A stretch of 64,000 nucleotides of DNA from an uncultured Clostridia bacterium. Its GTDB lineage: Bacteria; Bacillota; Clostridia; Lachnospirales; Lachnospiraceae. The translations under genes and the position numbers were made by a program. Within the stretch, counting starts at the first letter, position 1. Each line of letters starts with the position of its first letter. Below are positions 23,998-34,446 of the stretch, piece by piece. Below the pieces are notes generated by a model that worked only from the letters and a program-made list of their open reading frames with translations, ran no database searches and was not told where the DNA came from. The DNA lies in NCBI GenBank assembly GCA_948467395.1, contig CAOKDX010000001.1, positions 62,001 through 126,000 on the forward strand. Reading direction: 5' to 3'.

Positions 23998-26562
<2,565 letters not shown>

Positions 26563-26595
26563 CAGACAAAAAATATAAAACAGGTGGTGAAAAAA

Positions 26596-27700
26596 GTGGT
26601 CGAACTGGATAATATCCGAATCGAATTAAGCAGTTTTGAGAAACCCCTTTTGGAAGTAAGGGATTCACTTTAACTTAGCAGACAAGAAGCTGAGGGTAGA
26701 AGAGCTTGAGAGGAATATGGAGGCGCCGGATTTCTGGGATAATGCGGAGAAGGCCAGCGCCGACATGAAAGAGGTAAAGGATCTCAAGGATATCATTGAC
26801 CGCGCCGATAACCTCAGCGCGGCATATGAGGATATGATGACCCTGATCGAGATGGGGAACGAGGAAGAGGATGAGTCCCTGATCCCGGAGATCCAGGGTG
26901 AATTTGAAGAGTTTAAGAAAACCTTTGATGATCTGCGGATCACGACGATGCTCACCGGAGAGCATGATTCAGAGAATGCCATATTAACCCTTCATGCCGG
27001 TGCCGGGGGCACTGAGAGCTGTGACTGGGCCAGCATGCTCTGCCGGATGTATGAGCGCTGGGCGGACAAGAGAGGATTTACCGTGAAGGTGCTGGATTCT
27101 CTGGATGGGGATGAGGCTGGGCTCAAGTCCGTCACATTGGAGATCAGTGGTGAAAATGTGTATGGTTATCTGAAAAGCGAGCATGGCGTACACCGTCTGG
27201 TGCGGATTTCGCCATTTAACGCGGCGGGCAAGAGACAGACCTCTTTTGTTTCCTGCGATGTCATGCCGGATATCCAGCAGGATATTGACATTGAGATAAA
27301 CGACGACGATATACGGGTCGACACTTACCGATCCAGTGGCGCCGGCGGACAGCATATCAATAAGACGTCTTCCGCCATCCGCATTACGCATTTCCCCACG
27401 GGGATTGTAGTACAGTGCCAGAATGAGCGTTCACAGCATATGAATAAGGATAAGGCGATGCAGATGTTGAAAGCAAAGCTCCTGATACTGCGTGAGCAGG
27501 AGAATCTGGCAAAGGAGTCGGATATCCGCGGCGAGGTGAAAGAGATCGGATGGGGGAGCCAGATCCGTTCTTATGTGATGCAGCCGTATACGATGGTGAA
27601 GGATCACCGCACTGAGGCAGAGACGGGGAATGTGTCTGCTGTGATGGACGGCGGTATTGATATGTTTATGAATGCGTACCTGAAGTGGATCAACAGTTGA
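26596..27700 (+). CDS. prfB: Peptide chain release factor 2, with programmed +1 frameshift
   Basis: RF2 ends translation at UGA and UAA. The first part starts at GTG 26596 (AGGTGG upstream) and reads to CTT TAA at 26668-26673. A +1 shift on CTT continues in the frame starting AAC at 26672 (NLADKKLRVEELERNMEAPD). Total is about 367 residues. The downstream part has the SPF codon-recognition motif (VRISPFNAAG) and the catalytic GGQ (GAGGQHINKTSS). An SD-like AAGGGA lies just before the shift site. The in-frame stop is UAA rather than the usual UGA. RF2 levels should be self-controlled by this shift. Confidence 0.96.
26656..26674 (+). promoter_or_regulatory. prfB recoding site
   Basis: The site holds TAAGGGA (SD-like, 26657-26663), then CTT TAA C at 26668-26674. 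It fits the bacterial CUU URA C pattern of RF2 autoregulation, in the rarer UAA form. Confidence 0.9.
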
Positions 27701-27719
27701 TAAGAGAGAAGGGCAGCGA

Positions 27720-28193
27720 ATGAAGGAAATTGTTTCATTTTACTTAAGCGGCAAAATGTATGGGGTAGATGTAGACCATATGCAGGGGATAGAGAAGCAC
27801 CGGGAACTGGCCCGGCCGACAGGGCTGCCGGATTTTATGGAAGGCGTGGCGGATATCCGGGGGGAGATGATCCCGGTTATGGCGTTGAAAAAGCGTCTGA
27901 TCCTGCCTCCTGCAGATGTGACGGAGAAAACAAAGCTGCTTGTATTCCGTACCAGGAATGGGAAGATTGCCTGTATTGTGGATGGGATTTACAGAATACT
28001 GCAGATTGACAGCGAAAATGCGCAGGAATTTCCGCGGATCATTCAGAGTGAGGAGACCGGATATGCGGATTTTGTGGCAAGGAATGGCAGTGAGCTGATC
28101 CTGGTGATCAATCCTGAGAATCTCATCACTGAGGCGGAGTGGAAGGCAGTCAGCGAAATGTTAGACAGGATGGAGGAAGAAGACGATGATTAA
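27720..28193 (+). CDS. cheW: CheW-like chemotaxis coupling protein
   Basis: The protein (157 residues) is a single CheW domain: VSFYLSGKMYGVDVDHMQGI at the N-terminus, GVADIRGEMIPVMALKKRL near residues 43-61, and ELILVINPENLI near the end. CheW links chemoreceptors to CheA. The acidic C-terminus (EEEDDD) overlaps the start of hom by 8 bases. cheY and cheX lie 1.3 kb away on the other strand; no cheA or receptor is in this window, so it may be an orphan or paralogue. Confidence 0.85.
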   Translation: MKEIVSFYLSGKMYGVDVDHMQGIEKHRELARPTGLPDFMEGVADIRGEMIPVMALKKRLILPPADVTEKTKLLVFRTRNGKIACIVDGIYRILQIDSENAQEFPRIIQSEETGYADFVARNGSELILVINPENLITEAEWKAVSEMLDRMEEEDDD

Positions 28194-29391
28194 GATAGCA
28201 GTATTAGGTTATGGTACAGTGGGCTCCGGAGTGGTAAAGGTGCTGAACACAAATGCCAATATAATAGCGAAGAGGGCAGGACAGGAGGTAGGGGTGAAAT
28301 ATGTGCTGGATCTCCGGGATTTTCCGGAGGATCCGGTTCAAAATAAGGTTGTCCATGATTTTGATGTAATCCTGGATGATCCGGAGATTTCCATTGTGGT
28401 GGAGACCATGGGAGGCACGAAGCCCGCCTATGAATTTGTCAAGAAAGCGCTTATGTCAGGCAAGAGTGTGTGTACCTCCAATAAAGAGCTGGTGGCAGCG
28501 TACGGCGCCGAGCTGGTACATATTGCCAAGAGCAAGAGTGTGAATTTCCTTTTTGAGGCCAGCGTGGGCGGGGGCATTCCGGTAATCCGTCCGCTGAACC
28601 AGAGCCTGACGGCAGACAGGATCGAGCAGATAAACGGTATACTCAATGGTACGACGAATTATATTCTCACCAAGATGGCGCAGGATGGTTCTGATTTTGA
28701 TGAGGTGCTGCGAGAAGCGCAGGAGCTGGGTTATGCGGAGAAGGATCCCACGGCGGATGTGGAGGGCTATGATGCCTGCCGCAAGATTGCCATACTGACT
28801 TCCCTGGCTTATGGGCAGCAGGTGGATTATGAGGATATTTATACAGAGGGAATCACGAAGATCACGGCAGAGGATTTCCGATATGCAAAATCCATCGGTG
28901 CGGCGATCAAGATCTTTGGCACCAGTAAGAAGATTGGCGGCAGGCTGTATGCCATGGTGGCGCCGCAGATGATCCGGAGTGACAACCCCCTCTATGCGGT
29001 AAACGATGTATTTAATGCGATCTGTGTTACGGGAAATATGCTGGGGGACGTTATGTTTTATGGCAAGGGAGCCGGGAAAGAGGCAACGGCCAGCGCCGTG
29101 GTGTCGGATGTCGTGGACGCCGTGAAGCATATGAATATCAATGTAATGACAATCTGGGAGGATGAGAAGATGCCGGTAGCTCCGATGGATGAGATGAAGA
29201 ACCGTTTCTTCGTCCGCATCAGTGAGTCGGAGAGAGGGAAAGCCGAAGCAGAATTTGAAGAGATAGAAGCAGTGGACGGCGGTGTGAAAGGGGAATTCGG
29301 ATTTATTACAGGGATTATGACAGAAGGCGAATTCAATGATATCATCGCCGGGTTTGACAGCTTTATTACAAGAATCCGGGTTGGATTTTAG
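28186..29391 (+). CDS. hom: Homoserine dehydrogenase
   Basis: The enzyme (401 residues) reduces aspartate semialdehyde to homoserine for threonine and methionine synthesis. It has the Rossmann motif LGYGTVGSGVV, SNKELVAAYGAELVHIA near residue 98, the substrate region GGGIPVIRPLNQSLTADRI, and the signature INGILNGTTNYILT with EAQELGYAEKDPTADVEGYD. The C-terminal part (about 60 residues) is shorter than a full ACT domain, so feedback control by threonine is uncertain. Its ATG overlaps the end of cheW by 8 bases. Confidence 0.96.
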   Translation: MIKIAVLGYGTVGSGVVKVLNTNANIIAKRAGQEVGVKYVLDLRDFPEDPVQNKVVHDFDVILDDPEISIVVETMGGTKPAYEFVKKALMSGKSVCTSNKELVAAYGAELVHIAKSKSVNFLFEASVGGGIPVIRPLNQSLTADRIEQINGILNGTTNYILTKMAQDGSDFDEVLREAQELGYAEKDPTADVEGYDACRKIAILTSLAYGQQVDYEDIYTEGITKITAEDFRYAKSIGAAIKIFGTSKKIGGRLYAMVAPQMIRSDNPLYAVNDVFNAICVTGNMLGDVMFYGKGAGKEATASAVVSDVVDAVKHMNINVMTIWEDEKMPVAPMDEMKNRFFVRISESERGKAEAEFEEIEAVDGGVKGEFGFITGIMTEGEFNDIIAGFDSFITRIRVGF

Positions 29392-29398
29392 TAGAAAA

Positions 29399-29482
29399 AC
29401 AGGCTTCCTTTCCCATCGGTATGCAGCGCAGCGGTTAAAATATATATGTACCTGCTGCCGGGCCGGAGGGAGGGAAGCCTGT
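29399..29482. terminator. Long inverted repeat between hom and cheY
   Basis: ACAGGCTTCC (29399-29408) and GGAAGCCTGT (29473-29482) are perfect complements 64 bases apart, between convergent genes. The closing GTATAAAAC side gives a weak T-run for the minus strand. It could serve as a bidirectional terminator. Confidence 0.5.
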
Positions 29483-29495
29483 ATAAAACGAAGAA

Positions 29496-29855
29496 TCAAG
29501 GCATAAGATGTTCGATGGCAGTAGTGATCTGATCCGGGTCGAAGGGTTTCTGGATAAATTCGATGGCCCCGTGTTTGATGGCTTCTACCATTTTTTCTTT
29601 TTGGCCGGCAGCCGTTACCATAATGATATTGGCCTCGCTGTTGAGTTCCATGATTTTTTCCAGAGCTCCCAGACCATCCAGAACCGGCATTGTAATATCC
29701 ATCGTGACAATATCCGGATCAAGTTCAATAAATTTTTCGTATCCTTCCTGTCCGTTGTCCGCCTCACCGATCACCTCGTGTCCGGCTTTCGTGAGAATGC
29801 CCCGCAGCATTCGGCGGGATACACGGGAATCATCTACAATCAATATTTTTGCCAT
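29496..29855 (-). CDS. cheY: CheY-like single-domain response regulator
   Basis: The 119-residue receiver domain has acidic pocket residues D8-D9, phosphoacceptor D53 (in TMDITMP), Thr/Ser in MVTAAGQ and Lys in QKPFDP. There is no output domain, which fits CheY binding the flagellar switch. GGAGG lies upstream of the ATG at 29855. It follows the cheX-like gene by 17 bases, so phosphatase and target are co-transcribed. Confidence 0.93.
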   Translation of the reverse strand: MAKILIVDDSRVSRRMLRGILTKAGHEVIGEADNGQEGYEKFIELDPDIVTMDITMPVLDGLGALEKIMELNSEANIIMVTAAGQKEKMVEAIKHGAIEFIQKPFDPDQITTAIEHLMP

Positions 29856-29872
29856 AGTTTACATTCCTCCTG

Positions 29873-30742
29873 TCAGGCTAATTTCACGATTAAGTTTGAT
29901 CTTTTGCCTTCCACAAAGATGGGAAGTGAATAAAATGTATTATCTTCTTCGATAGCAGCATCAAAAAGAAGTTCCGGCGGTTTCATGTCCAGATGGACAT
30001 TCTGATAGCTCAGTTCGGCGGCATACAGGCCGTTTACACAGTTTGTAAATTCACCGACGGAATCGAGAGCATCTTCATCTACCGTGCCAAAACTTTCCTT
30101 TGCGTATCCCTCTGCGATGGCAAGAATGCCGTCGTCGTCTGAACAGAACCCGAGAAAACCTTCATAGTCGCCCACTGTGTGCTGGTATGCAAGATACCTT
30201 GCTTTCACGGATGAGACGAAGGAACCCTCCTCGATGCGCAGATACGAACTGACAAAGCGGATAATATTTCTGAGCGCCAGTCCGATTAGTCCGAGATAGC
30301 GGTTGTCCGGAGTCTCCACAAAAGCCGGGAGCATATCATCTATATCTGCATTTTTGATCGCCTCCATCACTTCGTCTGAAAAGTGGCGGGCTTCCTGAAA
30401 ATCAGCAAGGCTGCTGTTGATCTCATCTGAAGTAAACAGACCGTTTTCCTGTAATGCCTGAACAAAGGTCAGATATGGGTTCCCCTGAAGTCCCAGTAGA
30501 TAGTCAACCTCTGCTTCTGTTAGATATCCCTTTTCTACAGCCAGATCTCCGAAACGTTTGTCGGAATTCATCTGCAGATAGTTTAGCTCATTTGCCTGAC
30601 TGGATGAGAGCATTCCTTTTGTTTCGGCGATAAACCCCAGTTTTACACGATTAGCCTTTGTGTATTCGATACAGGAGGCGAACTGCTCAGCGGTAATTTT
30701 CTGGTTTTCCAACAAATAATTTCCAAAAAACTGACTAAACAT
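29873..30742 (-). CDS. cheX: CheX-type phosphatase fused to four N-terminal MshEN-like motifs
   Basis: The protein (289 residues) has two parts. The C-terminal half (about 130-289) resembles CheX/CheC/FliY phosphatases, with the E-x-x-N signature as E231-N234 in DSVGEFTNCVNGLY, where CheX dephosphorylates CheY-P. The N-terminal 116 residues contain four units of 24 residues (5-28, 34-57, 63-86, 92-115), each separated by exactly five residues. The third, RFGDLAVEKGYL and on to Gln86, closely follows the MshEN pattern R-L-G-x2-L-L-x2-G-L-L-x4-L-x3-L-x2-Q that binds c-di-GMP in some type II secretion and pilus ATPases. GAAAGGAG precedes the ATG. cheY follows. Confidence 0.8.
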   Translation of the reverse strand: MFSQFFGNYLLENQKITAEQFASCIEYTKANRVKLGFIAETKGMLSSSQANELNYLQMNSDKRFGDLAVEKGYLTEAEVDYLLGLQGNPYLTFVQALQENGLFTSDEINSSLADFQEARHFSDEVMEAIKNADIDDMLPAFVETPDNRYLGLIGLALRNIIRFVSSYLRIEEGSFVSSVKARYLAYQHTVGDYEGFLGFCSDDDGILAIAEGYAKESFGTVDEDALDSVGEFTNCVNGLYAAELSYQNVHLDMKPPELLFDAAIEEDNTFYSLPIFVEGKRSNLIVKLA

Positions 30743-30824
30743 AAAAATCTCCTTTCAATTGTACTTATTTTATTATACAATAGAACGGAGAAAAAAGAAA
30801 GAAGTTTTGAAAGGAAGTGTAAAA

Positions 30825-31931
30825 ATGGCTGGTTCGGTAATGGGCGAGATTTTTAAGATATCAACATGGGGGGAATCCCACGGGTACGGCATCGGGGTCG
30901 TGGTAGATGGGTGTCCGGCGGGCATTCCGCTGTCGGAGAAAGACATCCAGCCATTTTTGGACCGCAGAAGCCCAGGGCAGACGCGTTATTCTACGCCCAG
31001 GAAGGAATCGGACGAGGTAAGGCTTCTTTCGGGGATATTTGAGGGACGCACAACGGGAACCCCCATTTCCATGATGGTGGAAAACACTTCCCAGAAATCA
31101 AAGGATTATTCGGATATCGCGCAGTATTACCGTCCGGGCCATGCGGATTATACCTTTGACGCCAAATATGGTTTCCGGGATTATCGCGGCGGCGGGCGCT
31201 CTTCCGGCCGGGAGACCACCGGCAGGGTGGCGGCAGGCGCGGTGGCAGTTAAGATCCTGGGGGAACTGGGGATCCGGGTGAGGGCGTATACGAAGCAGAT
31301 TGGCCCCTTTGTGTGCAGGGAGGGGCATACATCCTGGGAGGATGTAGAGAGGAGCCCTCTTAGGATGCCGGATCTGGAGCAGTCCCAGGCGGCGGAGAAA
31401 TATCTGGAGCAGAAGATGAGCGAGCTGGATTCTGCCGGCGGCATTATTGAATGCGTCGTCACCGGGATGCCCGCGGGGATTGGGGAACCTGTCTTTGGAA
31501 AGCTGGATGCGGCGCTGGCCGGAGGAATTTTTTCTATTGGCGCGGTGAAAGGAGTGGAGATCGGAGCGGGCTTTGCCGTGGCAGGGAAAAATGGTTCTGA
31601 CAATAACGATGCATTTTATATGGATGCAGACGGGAAGATAAAGAAGGCGACAAACTTCGCCGGTGGAATTCTTGGCGGCATCAGCGACGGGGATGATATT
31701 ATTATCCGGGCGGCGTTTAAGCCGACGCCCTCCATATTCCGGCAGCAGAAAACCGTAAACCGGCAGGGAGAGGACGTGTCCGTCCGGATCAAGGGACGCC
31801 ATGATCCGGTGATCGTGCCCCGGGCGGTAGTGGTAGTGGAAGCCATGACGGCCCTGATCCTGGTGGACCGGCTGTTTGTGGGAATGACATCCAGGATGGA
31901 CAGGATACGGGATTTTTACAGCGACATATGA
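30825..31931 (+). CDS. aroC: Chorismate synthase
   Basis: The enzyme (368 residues) makes chorismate from EPSP using reduced FMN, the last shikimate step. It has the signatures STWGESHGYGIGVVVDG, FLDRRSPGQTRYSTPRKESD, DYRGGGRSSGRETTGRVAAG and a C-terminal RGRHDP-like IKGRHDPVIVPRAVVVVEAM. The ATG at 30825 has AAGGAAG upstream and begins MAGSVMGEIFKI; a longer frame to 30759 runs into the divergent cheX leader. No other aro gene is nearby. Confidence 0.97.
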   Translation: MAGSVMGEIFKISTWGESHGYGIGVVVDGCPAGIPLSEKDIQPFLDRRSPGQTRYSTPRKESDEVRLLSGIFEGRTTGTPISMMVENTSQKSKDYSDIAQYYRPGHADYTFDAKYGFRDYRGGGRSSGRETTGRVAAGAVAVKILGELGIRVRAYTKQIGPFVCREGHTSWEDVERSPLRMPDLEQSQAAEKYLEQKMSELDSAGGIIECVVTGMPAGIGEPVFGKLDAALAGGIFSIGAVKGVEIGAGFAVAGKNGSDNNDAFYMDADGKIKKATNFAGGILGGISDGDDIIIRAAFKPTPSIFRQQKTVNRQGEDVSVRIKGRHDPVIVPRAVVVVEAMTALILVDRLFVGMTSRMDRIRDFYSDI

Positions 31932-31965
31932 TGATAGTAAGAAATATGTAAGGTGCTGTCAGATC

Positions 31966-32154
31966 ATGAAGCAGTATGGAAAACGTGATCCTGAGACGAG
32001 GGTAGTGGTGGATGACACGACAATCTACGAGGTGGATATGGAGTGTTATTATTGTCTTACTGACAGGGAAAGGGAGCTGTATTATGACGGACTGGAGCCC
32101 TGGGCTGGAGAACAGGCCGCAGAGGGCGCGATTCCGGTGAACACCCGCGCATAA
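31966..32154 (+). CDS. Hypothetical small protein
   Basis: The 62-residue product begins MKQYGKRDPETRVVVDDTTI and contains MECYYCLTDRERELYYDG with a CxxYC-like pair. Codon use resembles the neighbours and AAGGTG lies about ten bases upstream. It follows aroC by 34 bases and is followed by a terminator, which suggests it is translated. No domain is recognised. Confidence 0.5.
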   Translation: MKQYGKRDPETRVVVDDTTIYEVDMECYYCLTDRERELYYDGLEPWAGEQAAEGAIPVNTRA

Positions 32155-32171
32155 CTGGGCTTTCCTGTAAG

Positions 32172-32220
32172 AACAGCAAGAGGACCTGCAGTGCTTATCT
32201 GTGCTGCACGTCCTCTTGTT
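32172..32220. terminator. Terminator after aroC and the small ORF
   Basis: CAAGAGGAC (32177-32185) pairs with GTCCTCTTG (32210-32218), with TGCAG/CTGCA inside and TT after. It separates these genes from the convergent ABC permease. Confidence 0.7.
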
Positions 32221-32223
32221 AAG

Positions 32224-32260
32224 TTAGCTCAACGGTGCGAAGTTGAATCCGCCGCTGAGA
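32224..32260. repeat. Dispersed palindromic repeat, copy B
   Basis: This 37-base element begins TTAGCTCAACGGTGC and ends CCGCCGCTGAGA. CTCA-ACGG pairs with CCG-CTGAG. It is the best-preserved copy; 31 of 37 positions match copy A at 7668. Confidence 0.65.
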
Positions 32261-32278
32261 TATCATGCTTTTCCGGGA

Positions 32279-33505
32279 TCACTCCCTGCTGTGGAGTCCC
32301 TTTAATGCATTGGTGAGTTTAATGGGATTTCCGTAACGGAGTGTGGAGTTGCGGAAAATCTTAGCTGCGATGAAGCCCATACCCACCACGGATACATACA
32401 GGATCACGGCAGCCAGTATGATCTCCCATACAGCCACCGTCCCCATGGCGATGCGGATAAACATGGCGCTGTAAGAGCTGACAGGAAGAAATGAAAGTAC
32501 CTTCATAATGATGCCGTCCGGCTCCTGCATCTGGAACAATACAAGAAAGTAAATGATCATAACGAGCATCTGGGCTGTTCCGGCACTCTTGTTCAGATCT
32601 TCTATCTTGGACACGAGGGCACCCAGGGCGCCATACATAAATGCATAGATCAGGAAACCACCCAGTCCAAATACTGCGAATGTCACAAGAACATCTGCGG
32701 GGATGTTAAGAATGAAATCCAGCATGCCGTCCAGATTGTCCCGGTTTAGATGATAGGCTCCCAGAAGGCTGGCGAAAATAAGACCAAGCTGGAACAGGAT
32801 CGCCGTGGCGCCTGCCAGAACCTTTCCGAACAGTAGGCTGGTGGAGGATGTACTGGTCACAAGAATTTCCACGGTCCGGTTGCTCTTTTCGTTGGCCACA
32901 CTGGTGGCGATCATCATGCCATACATAACAATAACGAAAAATACCAGTATGACAAGGATGTAGCTGTAGAAGTAATTTGACCGGGAATCCTTACCGAGGA
33001 TATTCTCGTGGCATACGATATTTTTTTCATCCATCTGAACCAGTTCATCATAGTTCAGATTATTGTCCTTACAGTATTTCATTCTGGCAGCCGTGCTCAT
33101 CAACTGGGAGAAAAGCTCTTTGGAATTTTCCATCATGGACTGGTTAAAGACATAATAATCGTATTCGTATAGGGAATGGATGACAAATCCGGCTTCCGAT
33201 TCCTCGGACCGGACTGATTCCTTCACTTCATGTTCGTTTTTTGTCCTTCGGATCTCTGCCTTTCCGTAGGAATTGAGAAGCTCGTCGGTGATAATGCCAT
33301 CGGGGTCATAAAGTGCTATGGTCTCTGCAATGGCATTGGTATTTTCTTTGGAATCCTTTTCGCCGGAGGATCTGCCGGACAGCAGTCCAGGAAGACTGAT
33401 GGCAGCGATGGCAAGGACACAGATCAGTATGGTGGAGAGCATAAAGGACTTGCTCTTAAAGTAGTTGCCCGATTCAAAACAATATACTTGAAATAATTTT
33501 TTCAT
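32279..33505 (-). CDS. ABC-2 type transporter permease (NatB/YhaP-like)
   Basis: The protein (408 residues) has an N-terminal membrane segment (FMLSTILICVLAIAAISLPG), a large extracytoplasmic domain (about 45-175), then five to six C-terminal segments starting ILVILVFFVIVMYGMMIATS. The motif VANEKSNRTVEILVTSTSST after the first of these is typical of NatB/YhaP permeases, which export sodium or unknown small molecules. Its ATG overlaps the ATPase stop by 4 bases, so the two form one operon. Confidence 0.88.
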   Translation of the reverse strand: MKKLFQVYCFESGNYFKSKSFMLSTILICVLAIAAISLPGLLSGRSSGEKDSKENTNAIAETIALYDPDGIITDELLNSYGKAEIRRTKNEHEVKESVRSEESEAGFVIHSLYEYDYYVFNQSMMENSKELFSQLMSTAARMKYCKDNNLNYDELVQMDEKNIVCHENILGKDSRSNYFYSYILVILVFFVIVMYGMMIATSVANEKSNRTVEILVTSTSSTSLLFGKVLAGATAILFQLGLIFASLLGAYHLNRDNLDGMLDFILNIPADVLVTFAVFGLGGFLIYAFMYGALGALVSKIEDLNKSAGTAQMLVMIIYFLVLFQMQEPDGIIMKVLSFLPVSSYSAMFIRIAMGTVAVWEIILAAVILYVSVVGMGFIAAKIFRNSTLRYGNPIKLTNALKGLHSRE

Positions 33506-34446
33506 TCTGGTTCACGACTCCCTTCTTCTGTCACACTATCACCCACGCAGGATACAAAAATATCATTGAGGGAGGGTTCATAGGAACCATAGTGGTCGAT
33601 CTCGATCCGCTCTGCCCGCAGCCTGTCCAGGATCTGCCAGGTGTCCGTTTCCTCCTGGAGCCGGAATATAACATTGTGCCGGGTCCTGCCCTCCACCTCC
33701 AGCAGATGGGACAGTTTTTCGCGGCAGCACTGCTCCAGTTCAGGGAGGGACATGTTCAGGGCGGACAGGATTTTTCGCCCCCTGCCATATTCTGCCTTGA
33801 TTTCATCCAGATTGCCGTCAAGGACGATCTCTCCCTGATTTACGATACAGATATCCTCACAGAATTCTTCTACATAGCTCATCTGATGGCTGGAAAAGAT
33901 TACGATACGTTCATCGGCGATCAGTTCCCGGATCACGTCTTTGAGGATCTGGGAGTTGACGGGGTCAAGGCCGGAGAAGGGTTCATCCAGTATAACGATA
34001 TCGGGATCGCTGACCAGTGTTGCGGCCAGCTGGACCTTCTGCTGGTTTCCTTTGGAAAGCGTATCCATTTTGCGTTTTGCGTATTCGGATACCTGGAGCC
34101 GTTCCAGCCATTTTGCTGCATTTTTCGAGGCCTTATTTTTGTCAAGGCCCCGGAGCCTGGCAAAATATATCATCTGCTCCAGCACAGTTTTCTTTGGATA
34201 CATACCTCGTTCCTCAGGCAGATAGCCCACCTGGTTTTTGGAGGGTTCAAATTTTTTGCCGTCCAGCAGGATCTCGCCCTCATTGGCGTGGAATATATCC
34301 ATTATAATACGGATAGAGGTGGTTTTTCCCGCGCCGTTTCTGCCCAGCAGTCCCAACGCCCTGCCGCTCTGAACGGAGAAGTTTATTCCCTTTAAGACTT
34401 CCTTGCCGTCAAAACTCTTGTGTATATTCCTTAGTTCAAGTCTCAT
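33502..34446 (-). CDS. ABC transporter ATP-binding protein (NatA/YhaQ-like)
   Basis: The 314-residue ATPase has Walker A GLLGRNGAGKTTSIR, the Q-loop region VGYLPEERGMYPKKTVLEQM, the signature LSKGNQQKVQ, Walker B PDIVILDEPFSGLDPV, and the switch His in IFSSHQMSYVEE. The LPEERG sequence is typical of the NatA/YhaQ group. The ATG at 34446 has AAGGAG upstream and is preferred over one 27 bases earlier. It overlaps the permease gene by four bases (ATGA). Confidence 0.92.
   Translation of the reverse strand: MRLELRNIHKSFDGKEVLKGINFSVQSGRALGLLGRNGAGKTTSIRIIMDIFHANEGEILLDGKKFEPSKNQVGYLPEERGMYPKKTVLEQMIYFARLRGLDKNKASKNAAKWLERLQVSEYAKRKMDTLSKGNQQKVQLAATLVSDPDIVILDEPFSGLDPVNSQILKDVIRELIADERIVIFSSHQMSYVEEFCEDICIVNQGEIVLDGNLDEIKAEYGRGRKILSALNMSLPELEQCCREKLSHLLEVEGRTRHNVIFRLQEETDTWQILDRLRAERIEIDHYGSYEPSLNDIFVSCVGDSVTEEGSREPE

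Follow-up and report, generated by a model that had tools for sequence, protein, structure and literature searches.

The MshEN domain of Vibrio cholerae MshE (PDB 5htl) is a c-di-GMP-binding segment of 53 residues, folded as a four-helix bundle, in which two motifs of 24 residues are separated by a spacer of five; the NCBIfam model NF053729 describes the MshE-related c-di-GMP-binding motif. Both a strict and a relaxed version of the motif are given in the main text of Wang 2016 (PMC5013675), which also reports that XpsE, an MshEN relative, has lost binding through changed contacts. PilF of T. thermophilus, as presented in the accessible part of PMC11731258, carries several motifs per protein on separate GSPII domains of a pilus ATPase; some of these motifs are degenerate, and GSPII-B binds with 6 nM affinity with K and L in place of arginines. 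CheX is a phosphatase known from structures of the T. maritima protein (PDB 1squ and 1xko) and of a complex with CheY (PDB 3hzh); the role of its acidic residue and asparagine pair is treated in the accessible part of PMC3035606.

The fusion of MshEN to CheX is already known as such, because Wang 2016 (PMC5013675) lists the CheX phosphatase among MshEN-associated domains, in one sentence that refers to a supplementary table. It is the one publication in which we found MshEN and CheX named together, in a search that reached few subscription journals and the main text of Wang 2016 rather than its supplement. That main text has the same two domains, and contains no receiver pairing, four-unit array or distribution. 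Three other papers name CheX, PMC8789113 (where a motility suppressor has a secondary mutation in the CheX-family gene vc0377), PMC9239204 and PMC3447774; their accessible parts do not describe an MshEN-array architecture. We report here a CheX protein with an array of four MshEN-type units, linked in three arrangements to a CheY-like receiver and spread over many genera, features of which we found no description. It is encoded in a stretch of 64,000 nucleotides, called the window below, from an uncultured Lachnospiraceae bacterium (assembly GCA_948467395.1, contig CAOKDX010000001.1, positions 62,001 to 126,000).

Results

An array of four MshEN-type units

The original prediction, made from the DNA alone, was of a CheX phosphatase gene whose product begins with four MshEN-like motifs at an exact period of 29 residues. 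The reading frame, the four units and the period are all upheld (Table 1). Compared with itself, the family profile is most similar at a shift of 29 residues (z 4.7) and next at a shift of 58 (z 3.4). In the window protein taken singly, the score at shift 29 was reached by none of 2000 shuffles, and by four of 2000 when any shift from 5 to 60 was allowed. The units lie N-terminal to CheX in an exact 24 + 5 spacing, the layout of the two MshEN motifs and their spacer carried on to four units. When the relaxed motif of Wang 2016 (PMC5013675) was scored at 11 positions per unit over four units in this spacing, the best start was residue 5, with a sum of 35 out of 44; no shuffle among 2000 reached 35, the best giving 31.

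Table 1. Features of the locus, in window coordinates.
Feature	Positions	Strand	Basis
MshEN x4 - CheX protein, 289 aa	29873..30742	-	ORF with ATG start; PF13690 and NF053729 matches
MshEN-type unit 1, aa 5-28, FFG-type	30659..30730	-	relaxed fit 8/11
MshEN-type unit 2, aa 34-57, KLG...Q	30572..30643	-	relaxed fit 9/11; E40, N54 fail
MshEN-type unit 3, aa 63-86, RFG...Q	30485..30556	-	relaxed fit 11/11
MshEN-type unit 4, aa 92-115, most degenerate	30398..30469	-	relaxed fit 7/11
CheX domain, Pfam match aa 188-264	29951..30181	-	PF13690
CheX active-site motif E231-F-T-N234	30041..30052	-	alignment to T. maritima CheX
Partner receiver, CheY-like, 119 aa, D8 D9 D53 T81 K103	29496..29855	-	PF00072 2.8e-30

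Profile searches bear out the MshEN-like identity of the repeats. The whole window protein scores 39.3 bits against NF053729 (cut-off 38), and all 45 members of the family alignment, the window protein included, match this model at E ≤ 0.001. Taken alone, the window unit pairs 1 + 2, 2 + 3 and 3 + 4 score 25.6, 24.1 and 20.6 bits, each below the cut-off; in the relative L075 every adjacent pair lies above it (52.9, 46.8 and 47.6 bits). Searched against the PDB, the family profile matches entries of MshE, PilB and PilF, and its residues 28-86 align to residues 3-61 of V. cholerae MshEN 5htl (9.7e-7), which places units 2 and 3 on motifs I and II of the c-di-GMP-binding segment. The sole other place in the window's genome that matches NF053729 at E ≤ 0.1 is a PilB-like ATPase (named by eye; contig C9, locus L031, 1483-3159), and this match is stronger, at 67.9 bits. 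Against the MshEN region of this PilB-type protein the family profile aligned units 3 and 4 rather than 2 and 3 (hhalign probability 70.5, E 3.9e-5), so that the register of the unit pair is unsettled between the two comparisons. Beyond having four units where MshEN has two, the window protein differs from the MshEN domain in its degenerate contacts and in carrying CheX instead of an ATPase, and no MshEN C-terminal subdomain was recognised in it; the G, Q and R/K positions are kept.

Helical repeat families often have units of two helices and about 30 residues. This usual length is what might commend the idea that the repeats are coincidental, TPR- or HEAT-like, and mistaken for MshEN, an idea that we scarcely credit given the match to NF053729 and to MshE, PilB and PilF structures, with the exact 24 + 5 layout. 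At E ≤ 10 four Pfam matches are listed for the window protein, none of them to a helical-repeat family; three of these, to Sigma70_r1_1, FumaraseC_C and TPP_enzyme_N, are weak, fall below their cut-offs and were set aside. Pfam includes a T2SSE_N/MshEN family, and it was matched neither by the window protein at E ≤ 10 nor by the 45 alignment members at 0.01. DUF4388 was matched by 12 of the 45 at 0.01.

A CheX domain with its active-site pair

The Pfam CheX profile PF13690 matches the window protein at 1.6e-9 (38.1 bits, cut-off 27) and 39 of the 45 alignment members at E ≤ 0.01, and the family profile matches the CheX structures 1squ/1xko at 7e-5. E231 and N234, which the original prediction had singled out as the CheX pair, do line up with GELGN of T. 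maritima CheX at its E and its N. The E-x2-N pair and the domain, as recognised by sequence, are those of CheX and suggest phosphatase activity; unlike CheX as described from T. maritima, this one is carried on an N-terminal array and is paired with a receiver gene.

We assembled 98 distinct full-length homologues, the window protein included, from 182 loci. All 98 keep the active-site asparagine; at the acidic position 79 have E and 19 have D. The D is confined to homologues with the receiver upstream, where 19 of 35 members have it (e.g. L073, L074 and L079). Three genomes (G356, G374 and G394; contigs C28, C14 and C54, respectively) hold second, partial copies that cover profile positions 103-288 only, that is, CheX without the MshEN array; the first copy in these genomes lies in a frame of 437-442 residues.

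An adjoining CheY-like receiver

The original prediction read the protein as a CheY-P phosphatase and overlooked the CheY-like receiver gene that starts 17 bp beyond the end of the CheX gene. This neighbour is the strongest clue to the substrate of the CheX protein. Within 250 bp on either side, and with a frame-length filter of 220, a receiver lies downstream in 52 of the 98 homologues and upstream in 35, is fused at the C-terminus in eight, and received no tag in three. Among the untagged loci, L072 does have a receiver downstream, in a frame of 256 residues and so beyond the filter, which brings the linkage to 96 of 98; at L090 the contig ends about 320 bases past the gene on the downstream side; and L182 has no receiver within about 1.47 kb on either side, the copy L164 in the same genome having one. 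The single polypeptides that join four MshEN-type units, CheX and a receiver (L083-L089 and L127, paralogues or relatives) occupy open frames of 437-494 residues. That the same pair occurs downstream, upstream and fused is a strong argument for joint action of the two proteins.

The receivers carry a complete phosphorylation site. D8, D9, D53 and K103 are present in 99 of 99 aligned rows (96 module receivers, that of the window repeated, and two other CheY-like proteins of the same genome), with T or S at position 81. The window receiver is 48% identical to the CheY encoded beside the FliMN_C genes of its own genome. In a tree that included 19 other receivers of that genome, the module receivers fell into one group (support 0.92), which L148 joined as the single outsider; neither the CheY beside the FliMN_C genes nor a third CheY-like protein belonged to it.

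Conservation of the contact positions

As originally predicted, unit 3 is the best of the four; it alone fits the relaxed motif completely. The misfits in unit 1 are F5, Q14 and K15, with T at the final Q position of the strict motif; those in unit 2 are at positions expected to be hydrophobic; and those in unit 4 are T92, V94, Q98 and F115, this unit having neither G at position 3 nor Q at its end. In the window protein each neighbouring pair of units departs from the relaxed motif in at least one half, and contact residues are not intact in any two adjacent motifs. Of the original interpretation, the MshEN-CheX fusion, a connection with motility and an input that may plausibly be a nucleotide or a protein are supported. 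K34, at the first position of unit 2, is no obstacle to binding, since PilF, according to the accessible part of PMC11731258, binds at nanomolar affinity with K or L there. N54 in the same unit is left unexplained by that precedent.

Similar repeats are present in orthologues: an alignment of 50 distinct sequences, among them that of the window, is free of gaps from residue 1 to 120, and the divergent members L169 and L171 of the wider set have gaps and no fitting unit. Unit 3 fits the relaxed motif in 84 of the 98 homologues. Units 2 and 3 fit together in nine, L129 and L079 among them, all with the receiver upstream. Among the 95 homologues of the downstream, upstream and fused groups (the three lacking a receiver tag being left out), units 2 and 3 keep R/K (position 1), G (position 3) and Q (position 24), each in 88-93. 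MshEN has a hydrophobic residue at position 21; in unit 2, 78 of the same 95 have N or H there. Unit 1 begins with an aromatic residue or L across the homologues, mostly as FFG where MshEN has RLG. Mean entropies in units 2 and 3 are 1.18 and 0.95, respectively, at the six contact positions of Wang 2016 (PMC5013675), 1.17 and 0.91 in the core, and about 2.2 elsewhere; when 10000 random sets of positions were drawn from these two units, 37 had an entropy as low as that of the contact positions. Constraint is weakest in unit 4 (2.04).

The contact positions are thus under constraint, though to no greater degree than the hydrophobic core, and a purely structural role would fit as well. This equal constraint, the contacts lost in units 1, 2 and 4, the N or H that unit 2 has at position 21, the FFG of unit 1 and the precedent of XpsE all speak for the chief alternative, in which the array descends from MshEN, no longer takes the nucleotide and serves as a scaffold for protein docking; in the window's lineage it would then sense no second messenger and would instead bring CheX to the receptor array, the flagellar switch or the receiver itself. 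A scaffold would have no need of the R/K, G and Q that units 2 and 3 so widely keep; nine homologues also retain the full pair, and PilF GSPII-B indicates that imperfect motifs can bind. We give the scaffold, docking role included, a substantial probability that is nevertheless clearly short of one half. c-di-GMP is a plausible ligand of the array; that the array of the window's lineage still binds it we place at somewhat below even odds.

Distribution and genomic context

In a sample of the order Lachnospirales, 85 of 392 genomes, in 41 of 173 genera, match the family profile at 1e-10; 79 of these matches are full length and six have the CheX part only or the MshEN part only. In a sample of the phylum Bacillota the matches number 26 of 398 genomes, 14 of them full length. 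The homologue loci come from Roseburia, Agathobacter, Eubacterium xylanophilum and other Lachnospiraceae, several of them from rumen, cecum or colon samples, and three lie in Desulfovibrio/Solidesulfovibrio (33% identical over the alignment).

The window's genome has 11 GGDEF, seven EAL and two FliMN_C matches. FliMN_C, which we used as a proxy for the flagellum, was found in all 40 carriers tested (the first 40 of 64 carriers of the same family, the window's genome excluded) and in nine of 20 non-carriers of that family among those listed (Fisher 4.9e-7). GGDEF barely separates the two groups, with 40 of 40 against 17 of 20 (Fisher 0.033); both p-values are too small, because the genomes share ancestry. 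Genus g30 has both states: six carriers and one non-carrier have FliMN_C, and two non-carriers are without it.

A lone CheW gene lies on the plus strand at 27720-28193 (PF01584, 1.5e-22), 1.3 kb from the receiver gene, between a release factor-like and a homoserine dehydrogenase-like ORF (both named by eye). A match to this CheW, at whatever position and with flanks of unequal length, occurs in 18 of 44 homologue loci. No chemoreceptor or CheA gene was recognised by eye among the ORFs at 26000-34000, where family searches were run on three ORFs. Promoter and terminator scans gave no minus-strand site. At Rfam gathering thresholds the window has no c-di-GMP riboswitch; the sole Rfam match is an S10-Clostridia ribosomal protein leader (RF03136, 41096-41178, plus strand, 71.9 bits).

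This context bears on whether CheX and its receiver might form a signal-dependent pair whose output is not the motor but, for example, the placement of flagella or attachment to surfaces. The low sequence identity of the receiver to the CheY beside the FliMN_C genes, its separate grouping and the lack of a recognised chemoreceptor or CheA gene nearby would suit such an output. We consider it unlikely, since FliMN_C accompanies the module in every carrier sampled, the receiver site is of CheY type, and a CheW gene lies near the window module and is matched in 18 of 44 homologue loci.

Discussion

We tentatively propose, with not quite an even chance of being right on the evidence of sequence and gene order, that the two genes form a module in which an MshEN array, most likely sensing c-di-GMP, controls a CheX-type phosphatase for its own dedicated second CheY. 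The four MshEN-type units, predicted to fold as helical hairpins, would set the activity or the location of CheX. The substrate would be the adjoining receiver, a second CheY distinct from the one beside the fliM/fliY-type genes. c-di-GMP would be sensed most likely through units 2 and 3, and its binding would alter the lifetime of the phosphorylated receiver, which may act on the flagellar switch or compete with the main CheY for phosphoryl groups. As in PilF (PMC11731258), several motifs are present in one protein, some of them degenerate, and unit 2 starts with the K that PilF tolerates at the first motif position; unlike in PilF, they form one array on a CheX protein rather than separate domains on a pilus ATPase.

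A broader form of the proposal is that c-di-GMP, acting on the four-motif array, directly sets CheX activity on a dedicated CheY as a widespread switch, in Lachnospiraceae, in other families of the same phylum and also in Solidesulfovibrio. We regard this switch, with that range, as possible and distinctly less than evenly probable. If it exists, c-di-GMP would enter motility control at the phosphorylation step rather than at the motor or through transcription. These ideas lend themselves to tests with purified proteins, since a substrate can be proposed for the enzyme, both occur naturally fused, and some relatives have intact sites and others degraded ones. Should c-di-GMP prove to be the ligand, both of the signalling systems by which a cell chooses between swimming and settling would meet at a single enzyme.
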